A stretch of DNA of 25,458 bases. It comes from a virus. The notes below the pieces were generated by a model. That model had not been told where the DNA came from. It saw nothing but the letters and a program-made list of their open reading frames with translations, and did not search any database. A program made the position numbers and the translations under genes. Below, piece after piece: positions 19,840 through 23,433 of the stretch. The stretch's first letter is position 1. Each line of letters starts with the position of its first letter. The stretch is taken from the IMG/VR virus record IMGVR_UViG_3300012355_000038, positions 1 through 25,458 of that record. One strand, written 5' to 3'.

Positions 19840-20166
19840 TCAGCCTCCGGCGACCCGAACGGCGGCGACAGTGACGCTCGTGACCGCCGAATAGGTGACG
19901 GTTTCCACGTGGTCGTAGATGCCATGGACCGGGATCATCGCCGTTCCGGTCGTGGCCGGCACGATGTACTGGCGGGTGACACCGGCCGGGCCAGCGGCCG
20001 TCACTGTCACGGCGCCGGCGGAGGCGTTGCGCACCTCGACCAAGACGCCGGTCGACCAGCCCGCGCCCCGTCGACCGCGGGGCACCGTGTCCCCACCGGC
20101 GGACGCCGCAACGAACGCGACGGAGGCGAGGCCATTGCTGGCGTCTTGGACGGTGAGCAGTGCCAT
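19840..20166 (-). CDS. Small beta-rich head-module protein (decoration candidate)
   Basis: A 108-aa protein rich in Val, Thr, Ala and Gly with alternating beta strands: MALLTVQDASNGLASVAFVA, GVLVEVRNASAGAVTVTAAG, TRQYIVPATTGTAMIPVHGI and ETVTYSAVTSVTVAAVRVAG. The composition and the place just after the capsid region suit a head decoration or stabilising protein. Only 3 nt separate it from its neighbours on both sides. I do not recognise a specific family, so this is a position-based suggestion. Confidence 0.65.
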   Translation of the reverse strand: MALLTVQDASNGLASVAFVAASAGGDTVPRGRRGAGWSTGVLVEVRNASAGAVTVTAAGPAGVTRQYIVPATTGTAMIPVHGIYDHVETVTYSAVTSVTVAAVRVAGG

Positions 20167-20169
20167 GGG

Positions 20170-20400
20170 TCACGCCTCCTGTTCCGCGACGGACCAGCCG
20201 CCACCCTCGGCGGCACCGTGACCGTTCGGGCATTTGCCCTGGTCGACCATGGCGCCGCACACCGAGCACTGCACGTACTCGGCGGGCGTGGCCGGCTCGG
20301 GGTCGGCCAGGATCTCGTGGCCGCCCGCCTTGATGACCCGCTTCGCGGGTTCAGCGGGGCCCTTCGGCTCCGTGGGCTTGGATGTGCCGCTGGCCGCCAT
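20170..20400 (-). CDS. Zinc-ribbon protein in the head module
   Basis: A 76-aa protein from ATG 20400, whose last base is the first of the capsid stop (TGATG). The first 40 residues are Pro/Ala/Lys-rich and probably flexible; then VQCSVCGAMVDQGKCPNGHG gives C45, C48, C57 and H61, a compact CCCH zinc knuckle. A zinc-binding protein among structural genes is not unusual in actinophages, but its job is unknown to me; a capsid-associated or assembly role is inferred from position only. Confidence 0.7.
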   Translation of the reverse strand: MAASGTSKPTEPKGPAEPAKRVIKAGGHEILADPEPATPAEYVQCSVCGAMVDQGKCPNGHGAAEGGGWSVAEQEA

Positions 20401-22202
20401 CAGGCGCTCTTGTTCAGGGCGGCGAGACCGGCGGGGCGCAGGACTTTGGTGGCGTAGTAGCCGAACAGGGCGAGCTCGACGAGTGCCGGCCCGGATTTCT
20501 CTTCGAAGCGGAAGTCGAGCAGCGGCGATTCCCACACCCAGAAGTCGTTGCGGTTGATGATGATCAGCACATCATCGGTGATCGTCTCGGTCATCGCCCA
20601 CGCCGGCACGAACGGCAGGCCGTCTACGTACCAGCCCTGCTGGACGGCGTTGCCGAGGCCCACGGTGTTCGTGGCCCCGATGCTCGGCAGCAGCGGCCGG
20701 CCGGTCGTGTCTACCGCGTTGGCGAAGTTGCGGGTCACCGACTGGCTGATGACGGCGCCGGTCGGTGCCGCGAACCGCGTGAACGGGTACATGGCCAGCA
20801 GGTTGCGGGTCGGCCCGATCGCCAGGCCGGTGGTCAGGTCCAGGTTGGCCTGCGTGACGTTCGTGACCAGCGGGGCGGCAGCCTGGTTGTTGATCGCGGC
20901 GTACGCCTTCTGTTCGGTCTGCCGATTCCATGATTCCCGCATCGCTGACATGGCGATGGCGTCGATCGCCGGGTTGGCGGCGTCGACGATCTCGCGGGTC
21001 AGCTTGAACGAGCCCGAGATGCCACCGGGGGTGACCGTCACAGTGTCGAGGGTCAGTGTGCCGTCCGTCGGGTTGACGCCTTCCACATGGTCGGCGGTGG
21101 CGCCCGTAGCGGTCACGAACCGGGGGACCGTGAACGGCGTCGCGTCCGAGATGGTGCCTCTCGATGCGTGGGCGACGATCGGCCGGCCCTGCATGAGCTG
21201 GGTGACGTACAGGTCAGGCCGATAGCCGGGCGGGATCACCTGGGAGGCGTTGCCGGTGGTGACCGTCGCGAACTTCACGAGATCGCTCTGCTGCTCCTTG
21301 AACTTGTTGAGCCGGTCACGGGCGTCGTAGTCCCGATGGTCGTAGAAGGCCCAGGCGTCCCGCACCAGCGACTCGTGACGGGAATCGCCGTCGAACCGGT
21401 ACACGGGCGGTTCCGAGATCACCTTGAACCGGGCCGCGGCCGCCTCGCCCCGGCCGGCCGCGTCGACGTCCTCAAGCCGGCTGAAGGCTGCCCCGAACGC
21501 GTCGGCCACGTTTTTGGCGATCGACTCCTGGGATGCCTCGAATGACTCGGACAGCTTGTCGGCCATCTTCGCGAACCGCTGGTCCAGTTCGGCCTCGAAA
21601 CGTTCCATGCCCGAACCCTGGTGTTCCAGGACTGTGGGCTTGGCTCCGTCGCCGGTGGCCTTGTCGCCCTCACGGGCAGGGATGGTTGCCATTTCCGCTC
21701 CCTCCTGGGAAGCAACAACCGACGCAACTCTTGCGTCGGCGAACGCTGGGATAGCCACGATGGACACCTCCACGAGACGGGCATCGTGCACGAGGCGCAC
21801 ACTCGGGTCGTCGGGGTCCGCCTGCCAACCGTCGGCCGCGAACGCCGGCCCGACAGAGAACCCGTCGAGGACGCCATCTTCCGCTTCGGACAGGATCTCG
21901 TCGCCCGCCTGGCCCCGCTTCACCTGGAACTCGGCCCACAGACCTTCGTCGCGGTCCTCGAACCCCAACGCCTTGCCGACTGCGTTCTGCGGGTCGTGGT
22001 CCTTGAGCAGTTTCACCCGGCCGGTGTCAGCCGGCACCTCCACCGAACTGCGGGCGAAACGCCACTGGAACCCGCCAGAAAAGGCGACCTTGCCCCAAGG
22101 TAGGACCATTCCAGAAATCCGGCGCCGGGTGCGGTCAACCCGGAATTCGGCGTCGGGCGCAGCGAAATCGAACCGTTCAGGATGCGACGGGGACTCGGCC
22201 AT
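20400..22202 (-). CDS. Prohead protease fused to major capsid protein (HK97-type)
   Basis: A 600-aa polyprotein; ATG 22202 has AGAGGAG upstream and overlaps the portal gene by 26 bp. Residues 1-165 are a U35-type protease: RRISGMVLPWGKV, catalytic-type H69 in LLKDHDPQ, S116 in VLDGFSVGPAF, and E145 in LVEVSIVAIPAFADA. Residues 185-265 form a charged helical scaffold (RFEAELDQRFAKMADKLSES). Residues 270-600 are the capsid fold: VIPPGYRPDLYVTQLMQGRP, TPFTVPRFVTATG, SGSFKLTREIVDAANPAIDA and FVPAWAMTETITDDVLIIIN. The protease should cut itself and the scaffold off as the prohead matures. An internal ATG at 21692 with its own strong ribosome-binding site may add capsid subunits without protease. 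Confidence 0.92.
   Translation of the reverse strand: MAESPSHPERFDFAAPDAEFRVDRTRRRISGMVLPWGKVAFSGGFQWRFARSSVEVPADTGRVKLLKDHDPQNAVGKALGFEDRDEGLWAEFQVKRGQAGDEILSEAEDGVLDGFSVGPAFAADGWQADPDDPSVRLVHDARLVEVSIVAIPAFADARVASVVASQEGAEMATIPAREGDKATGDGAKPTVLEHQGSGMERFEAELDQRFAKMADKLSESFEASQESIAKNVADAFGAAFSRLEDVDAAGRGEAAAARFKVISEPPVYRFDGDSRHESLVRDAWAFYDHRDYDARDRLNKFKEQQSDLVKFATVTTGNASQVIPPGYRPDLYVTQLMQGRPIVAHASRGTISDATPFTVPRFVTATGATADHVEGVNPTDGTLTLDTVTVTPGGISGSFKLTREIVDAANPAIDAIAMSAMRESWNRQTEQKAYAAINNQAAAPLVTNVTQANLDLTTGLAIGPTRNLLAMYPFTRFAAPTGAVISQSVTRNFANAVDTTGRPLLPSIGATNTVGLGNAVQQGWYVDGLPFVPAWAMTETITDDVLIIINRNDFWVWESPLLDFRFEEKSGPALVELALFGYYATKVLRPAGLAALNKSA
21690..21706 (-). promoter_or_regulatory. Strong internal ribosome-binding site and ATG in the protease-capsid gene
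   Basis: AGGAGGG lies on the minus strand just after the protease domain, with AGGAGG at 21706-21701, followed after 8 nt by an in-frame ATG (21692-21690, residue 171, MATIPAREG). Initiation here would give a 430-aa scaffold plus capsid protein without protease. The position at the domain border makes chance occurrence less likely. Confidence 0.7.
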
Positions 22203-23433
22203 TGCCGTTGCTCCTCTCGGCCGGCGGTTCAGCCGGTTCGGCCACTGGTCTGGCGCGCTGCTCGAGGCGGGCTTCCTCCGCCGGGGTGAGCGGTGGACGG
22301 TGCTCCGCCTCCCGGATCTCGCCGGTCGTTATGGCGCCCACCTCCCGGCCGATCTGGTAGGACTCCATCCGGGTCTTGGTGTCGGCCCGCAGGAATCCTC
22401 TGACGTCGAACTTGGCGTGCAACCCCCGCGGCAACACATCATCCTTCGACAACCGCTGCTCAATAGCGACCATGTACGGCATGAGCGTGAAGCTGATGAG
22501 GTCCATGCGCCGCTGCTCAGCGTTCTGGTAGGTGCGGGTCGTCGTCGAAATGCCCAGGTCCTCCGGGTCGATCCCGGCCGCCCTGGCGATCTCCAGGACC
22601 GCGTGGTTGCGGGCGTCGGCCAACTGGATCTGTTCGGCGTTCCATTGCGGCGTTTCCAGGTCGAGCGAGTTGGGCACGTAGCCGAACGCCCGGGTGCGCC
22701 GGGCTGCCGCCCACTGGTCCAAGACGGCGGTGATCTCCTCGTCGTCGAGCGGGTCGACGTTGTCCTTGTCTGTGAAATAGCCGAGCGGCATCGGGTCGGA
22801 GGCGTAGAGCTCGGCCGCCTTGTCGAGCAGCAGGGCCGCCCGGACCGCCCGTGCCGCATGCTTGAGCAGCGGCGGGTTCGGCGACACGAACCGGATGACC
22901 TCTCGGGGCGGGACCGGGGCACCGTCGATGAAGATCGGGTCCCGGGGCGAGAACGTGAGGTCTTCGGACAGCACCTCGGACGGCATTCCGAGGATGGCAT
23001 GTTGGGAGACGGAACGTTTGTCGAGGTGGTGGCCCTCCACTGGGTAGCCCTCAGCATTGAAGCGGGTGACCCGCCAGTAGGACACCGATTCGAACAGCAG
23101 GTCTTCGAACGTCGCCGCGTACACGACCGACGCCGGGATCTCGGGGTGCGGGTCGCCGACGATCGAGTTGCGGGTATCGACCGCCAACGTCCTGTCGTAC
23201 ACGTTGATGGGCAGGGTCGACGGGATGCCGGCCACCATGTTCCGAGCCCGCAGTACCGCCGGCACGCTCAGCGCGTCGCGGCGCGACACTTTCGCCGATG
23301 AGAGACCGGCCAGTTGGTCGAGGAGGAACGGGTCGGCGTTGAGGCTGAACCCGAGCTGGAAGCCATTGACGCCCGGCTCCGACCACTCCTCGGCCACCGG
23401 CTCGGTGCGAGCCCAGCGGCTGTACCACGCCAT
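22177..23433 (-). CDS. Portal protein
   Basis: A 418-aa portal. Seen: FLLDQLAGLSSAKVSRRDAL with VPAVLRARNMVAGIPSTLPI, the beginning of HK97/SPP1-type portals; RVTRFNAEGYPVEGHHLDKR and VIRFVSPNPPLLKHAARAVR; then FTDKDNVDPLDDEEITAVLD and FGYVPNSLDLETP; and LADARNHAVLEIARAAGIDP, followed by the stem helix sequence QNAEQRRMDLISFTLMPYMV. It makes the twelve-fold ring through which DNA enters and on which the tail docks. The start is one base before the large terminase stop ends (shared base), and its end overlaps the capsid gene. Late-operon translation is thus tightly coupled. Confidence 0.92.
   Translation of the reverse strand: MAWYSRWARTEPVAEEWSEPGVNGFQLGFSLNADPFLLDQLAGLSSAKVSRRDALSVPAVLRARNMVAGIPSTLPINVYDRTLAVDTRNSIVGDPHPEIPASVVYAATFEDLLFESVSYWRVTRFNAEGYPVEGHHLDKRSVSQHAILGMPSEVLSEDLTFSPRDPIFIDGAPVPPREVIRFVSPNPPLLKHAARAVRAALLLDKAAELYASDPMPLGYFTDKDNVDPLDDEEITAVLDQWAAARRTRAFGYVPNSLDLETPQWNAEQIQLADARNHAVLEIARAAGIDPEDLGISTTTRTYQNAEQRRMDLISFTLMPYMVAIEQRLSKDDVLPRGLHAKFDVRGFLRADTKTRMESYQIGREVGAITTGEIREAEHRPPLTPAEEARLEQRARPVAEPAEPPAERSNGNGRVPVAS

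Follow-up and report, generated by a model that had tools for sequence, protein, structure and literature searches.

In phage lambda, an in-frame start within the protease gene C gives rise to a shorter scaffold protein, Nu3, that is without the protease domain; the lambda C protease is ClpP/S49-like, and the capsid protein E is the product of a separate gene. Gifsy-2 has a tripartite capsid gene in which protease, scaffold and capsid are combined. For the Pseudomonas phages MD8/F10, the available part of the published description presents gp5 as one gene for protease, scaffold and capsid, with no mention of an internal start found there (PMC8508860). Genes called "major capsid and protease fusion" occur in small actinobacteriophages of clusters EE, AN, AX, FE, CW and DM and in RRH1 (accessible portions of PMC7302621 and PMC5513430), and in these portions both Klyczek 2017 (PMC5513430) and Jacobs-Sera 2020 (PMC7302621) describe the fusions as single fused genes; we found no mention of an internal start in the same portions of either paper. 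We searched the literature, largely its open-access part, for descriptions of protease-capsid fusions in which the capsid has an internal start and found none, although prior notice is possible; we also found no product, ribosome-profiling or N-terminal data for the relatives of the phage considered here.

The DNA that we analyzed, hereafter the window, is a viral stretch of 25,458 nucleotides (positions 1 to 25,458 of IMG/VR record IMGVR_UViG_3300012355_000038). On its minus strand, a single open frame combines an S78 prohead protease, a scaffold and an HK97-fold capsid (Pfam, PHROG, AlphaFold and Foldseek), and this frame holds a second candidate start. The features to which we refer are the following.

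20400..22202, minus strand: protease-scaffold-capsid fusion gene, 600 aa (open reading frame; Pfam; PHROG)
22211..22218, minus strand: long-form ribosome-binding site, GAGAGGAG, whose core precedes the ATG at 22202 by 8 nt; duplex energy -8.3 kcal/mol
22177..23433, minus strand: separate portal gene (phrog_12 portal, 5.8e-39)
21708..22121, minus strand: prohead serine protease domain S78 (Pfam PF04586, 1.6e-14; pLDDT about 90)
21609..21728, minus strand: low-confidence linker, residues 159-198, which holds the internal start (AlphaFold pLDDT below 50)
21701..21706, minus strand: internal Shine-Dalgarno (SD) AGGAGG, -10.8 kcal/mol, SD kept in relatives
21690..21692, minus strand: internal start codon ATG, Met170, with ATG or GTG at the equivalent junction of relatives
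20400..21692, minus strand: putative nested in-frame gene, scaffold-capsid, 431 aa (predicted product; compare the split relatives L043/L044, L047 and L048)
21462..21611, minus strand: long helix, residues 198-247, a probable delta-domain-like scaffold (AlphaFold/DSSP)
20592..21236, minus strand: HK97-fold major capsid domain (Pfam Phage_capsid; Foldseek)

In the 600-aa protein, Pfam places Peptidase_S78 at residues 28-165 and Phage_capsid at residues 323-537, with no ClpP/S49 match to the protease, and the major head protein profile phrog_2263 gives a full-length match over residues 21-594 (E 2.1e-57). The AlphaFold model (mean pLDDT 71) is confident for the protease to about residue 157; it continues with a predicted disordered stretch (159-198) that contains Met170, the long helix and then an HK97-type capsid. 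The best Foldseek matches were all phage/HK97 capsids, HK97 itself included (E 2e-12 to 6e-11), and a PDB sequence search with the fusion protein found no relative. According to this model, the internal start falls at the border of the protease and scaffold domains, in a disordered linker.

An earlier sequence-only reading of this DNA had noted an AGGAGG 8 nt ahead of an in-frame ATG at the protease/scaffold border, and had proposed that a frame of about 430 aa is nested there inside the 600-aa one. The minus strand indeed reads AGGAGG-GAGCGGAA-ATG at 21706..21690, with a spacing of 8 nt and in frame with the 600-aa open reading frame, and the site lies in the linker between the S78 domain and the scaffold-HK97-capsid part; the ATG is codon 170, and the exact length of the predicted nested product is 431 aa. 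That the ribosome-binding site is stronger than most others, as was also claimed, holds as well, since, of 10 starts in the window whose duplex energy with the 16S tail was scored, only that of the portal (-11.7) exceeds it (internal site -10.8, the fusion gene's own start -8.3 kcal/mol). The pattern AGGAGG-N5-9-ATG occurs three times in the window against 0.71 expected, and 3 of 100 shuffles reach three, so that by itself the single copy in the window is modest, suggestive evidence; it is the comparative tests in relatives that place the internal SD and ATG far beyond chance. The other two copies are starts of open reading frames, that of the portal gene and one at 20166. The latter, an AGGAGG-N8-ATG at 20164-20180 on the minus strand, begins an open reading frame (20166..19840) downstream of the capsid gene that is possibly a small head gene. 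In the window, the portal is a gene of its own, which shares 26 nt with the beginning of the fusion gene.

A first scan for relatives gave a single locus, L002, and a scan with a two-sequence alignment gave 53 viral loci (L002 included) and 4 loci in the sequenced actinobacterial genomes of Actinoplanes, Jiangella, Amycolatopsis and Prauserella. Removal of loci more than 80% alike left 39 non-redundant relatives of 40-60% identity, 37 of which have the protease and capsid fused in one frame. Loci L045, L052 and L053 (no protease match) and L054 (no capsid match) were unused, and L042, in which the protease-end motif was not found, was left out of the statistics. In the family alignment, the protease ends with a conserved PAFDDARV motif beyond which the amino acids are unconserved, and in nearly every locus the linker that follows has an ATG, in some cases a GTG, preceded at 5-12 nt by a purine-rich SD. 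For L034 and L055, the automatic choice of the best SD fell too near the protease end to be a likely true start; each has a junction ATG farther on.

Averaged over the 37 fused relatives, the SD energy at the best in-frame linker start is -7.3 kcal/mol compared with -4.0 kcal/mol in codon-permuted linkers (z -8.6), and a strictly defined SD plus start is present in 95% of the linkers versus 8% of 594 other 33-codon windows from the same genes. The start codon at the junction is ATG in 89% and GTG in 11%, and RNA folding near it is weaker (-10.4 versus -16.4 kcal/mol, p 9e-15). When the first ATG after the protease is simply taken, regardless of its SD, that SD nevertheless exceeds in strength those of 355 control ATGs (p 4e-11). 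Residue 2 of the predicted nested product is A, T, S, P or G in 84% of cases, versus 43% after other ATGs, and this preference resembles that of true N-termini. An in-frame internal start with its own SD is found inside the protease gene and is kept in the relatives.

Conservation of this kind could reflect the RNA or the protein. Randomization over all synonymous codons brought no significant drop in SD strength averaged over the family (z -1.2), a result that we count as neutral, since the K/E/Q/G-rich linkers already spell purine-rich, SD-like DNA; we therefore used codon-specific tests, which alone separate the two constraints. In codons -5 to -3, Gly is encoded by GGA or GGG in 21 of 21 cases compared with 26% elsewhere (p 8.5e-13), and Arg by AGA, AGG or CGA in 8 of 10 compared with 7% elsewhere (p 3.5e-8); the codons ahead of control ATGs are unbiased (Gly 20/69, Arg 2/53). 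The sequence-only reading had suggested looking at whether AGGAGG and ATG are conserved in related fusions, and had named as damaging to it a pattern in which the amino acids are kept and the AGGAGG/ATG is lost. The reverse is seen: the SD and an ATG or GTG stay in essentially all relatives, while the linker residues vary.

A few relatives have the protease and the capsid in different frames, and their capsid open reading frame begins with an SD and ATG at the junction. These split-frame loci are:

L043:4365-5804
L044:4044-5483
L047:3624-4994
L048:4491-5819

They group together among loci in which the portal is fused as well (capsid tree, midpoint rooting). The frame break in this group is a natural gene-splitting event, and once the frame is broken the internal start, to judge from its position, serves as the start of the capsid gene. 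Together with the conserved SD and ATG/GTG and the biased synonymous codons, these capsid starts lend support to the earlier interpretation that the site is an internal start. In the family as a whole, the segment from the protease to the start has 11 different lengths, mostly 11-22 codons, and 37 of the 39 relatives retain an open frame. Such variation in length with the frame kept, together with invariant catalytic residues (His69 and Ser116 among 35 aligned family sequences), suggests that the protease-bearing long form is probably needed too.

The same arrangement recurs well beyond this family, in named phages and in unrelated ClpP-type fusions, a breadth that the sequence-only reading had missed; nor had it seen that in many relatives the portal joins the fusion and brings an internal start of its own. 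Among 14 named actinobacteriophages with protease-capsid fusion genes, each annotated as one CDS, 13 have an SD and ATG at the protease/capsid border; it reads CGAAAGGAACTCCGC-ATG in Penoan and GAGAGGACACCCCCAAC-ATG in Scamander, and Root, MooKitty, RRH1, McGonagall, Schiebs and Noely also carry it. Two laboratory phages have this layout, Microbacterium Scamander (gp5, Met166) and Arthrobacter Maggie (gp7, Met160). The sole exception is the Gordonia phage EricDab, which is without a good internal SD at this junction. In EricDab (L069:2009-3895), the protease-capsid part is preceded in the fusion by a hydrophobic N-terminus that is possibly holin-like, and an SD and ATG (CGAAAGGAACCCGAT-ATG, codon 117) lie between the two; the N-termini of RRH1 (L065) and McGonagall (L066) are extended in a similar way but have no internal SD of this kind.

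In the Pseudomonas phages, the gene concerned is:

L073:4387-6468: ClpP-type protease-scaffold-capsid gene of F10/MD8 (relatives L142, L147-L164)

The ATG that directly follows its protease domain, at codon 220, is conserved in 14 of 14 relatives of 60-98% identity, with an SD of -5.6 or below. A mean SD below -3.5 is reached at only one other widely kept ATG/GTG column, codon 185 (12 of 14 relatives). We set the strong SD at Met185 aside because of its position within the protease domain and its presence in just a part of the family.

For 24 of the 37 fused relatives of the window gene, the open frame takes in the portal as well, over about 1,000-1,400 open codons, and in all 4 sequenced genomes the portal and head-protein profiles share one open reading frame. 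The triple-fused loci, with about 19 more, include:

L002:1697-4768
L055:2711-5824
L056:2231-5734
L057:2726-5863
L058:1871-5095

At the portal/protease border, an SD with GTG or ATG has a mean energy of -8.2 kcal/mol compared with -3.5 kcal/mol in shuffled sequence (z -9.1), and an SD at or below -7 is found in 79% of these borders versus 4% of portal windows. We consider it reasonably likely that, in this large family of actinobacterial phages and prophages, portal, protease, scaffold and capsid form one stop-less frame with two conserved internal ribosome sites that yields a nested series, and that the solution arose independently in S78- and ClpP-type fusions. One mRNA frame would then give portal-protease-capsid, protease-capsid and capsid proteins in copy numbers set by the strength of initiation, and the rarer members would be tethered to the shell by their built-in capsid tail.

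For the window gene itself, the 600-aa frame very probably represents two nested in-frame genes with a shared stop that set the stoichiometry of protease and capsid. This reading builds on observed features: the domains, the internal SD and ATG with their nucleotide-level conservation, the gene starts of the split-frame relatives and the recurrence in unrelated families. Initiation at the ATG at 22202 would produce the 600-aa protease-scaffold-capsid protein, and the AGGAGG would recruit ribosomes to the ATG at 21692 for a 431-aa scaffold-capsid protein, the presumed bulk subunit of the shell; both proteins would then be made, with the short form presumably in excess. By analogy with HK97 and lambda, the long form could co-assemble through its scaffold/capsid part and so bring protease into the procapsid in limited copy number; there the protease may cut away the delta-like scaffold region during maturation.

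It is improbable, in our view, that all capsid instead derives from a self-cutting full-length fusion and that the internal SD and ATG are left over as a relic from an ancestor in which the capsid had its own gene. Such a polyprotein would agree with the in-frame fusion to a protease that looks active and with existing annotations that give one protein (available part of PMC7302621). A relic, however, would be expected to decay at 40-60% protein identity, and essentially every lineage retains the SD and start codon along with the relaxed RNA structure and the bias in synonymous codons; the split state, moreover, is found in one group among triple-fused relatives of the midpoint-rooted capsid tree. 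We give even less credence to a protein reason for the purine-rich junction, be it cleavage or a flexible K/E/G-rich linker motif, with the SD as its by-product. Synonymous randomization alone does keep many SD-like sites, and an RKE motif is common to some of the phages, but the linker residues differ widely (SQEGAEM, SKEKGTSM, EREEPDM, RQQGGGM and others), the rare codons GGA, CGA and AGG are chosen only at the junction, and an ATG or GTG at fixed spacing after the SD is kept as well. A chance SD and ATG within a G+C-rich gene, which the expectation of 0.7 such motifs per window might seem to allow, is scarcely conceivable: family-wide conservation across the 37 fused relatives refutes it, and the arrangement is found independently in other families.

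Should ribosomes use the nested start, the annotation of the main shell protein in such phages is wrong, and a 1:1 ratio of protease to capsid is no longer a puzzle: the stoichiometry could be tuned through two initiation sites (or three) within a single frame. A simple rule would then be at hand for how phages can fuse neighbouring head genes and still control their dosage.

Nested starts as such were already known; what appears to be new is the whole capsid as the predicted nested product, its conservation in a family, its recurrence in unrelated ones and the three-gene fusions. As in lambda C/Nu3, an internal in-frame start in the window gene would give a shorter assembly protein that lacks the protease domain, but the lambda product is scaffold only, whereas the nested frame described here continues across the HK97 capsid domain as far as the common stop; by Pfam, the protease of the window gene is S78 and not homologous in fold to the ClpP/S49-like lambda C. 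With HK97, the window gene shares a scaffold (the delta-domain of gp5) N-terminal to an HK97-fold capsid and an S78-type protease upstream, although in HK97 the protease gp4 and the capsid gp5 are separate genes. The gp5 of F10/MD8 likewise has protease, scaffold and capsid in one gene with an SD and ATG after the protease, but its protease is ClpP-type and the phages are unrelated. The fusions of the small actinobacteriophages have the same order of S78 protease, scaffold and HK97 capsid in one frame and, in 13 of 14, the border SD and ATG; their sequence similarity to the window family is low, 31-41% in the protease only.
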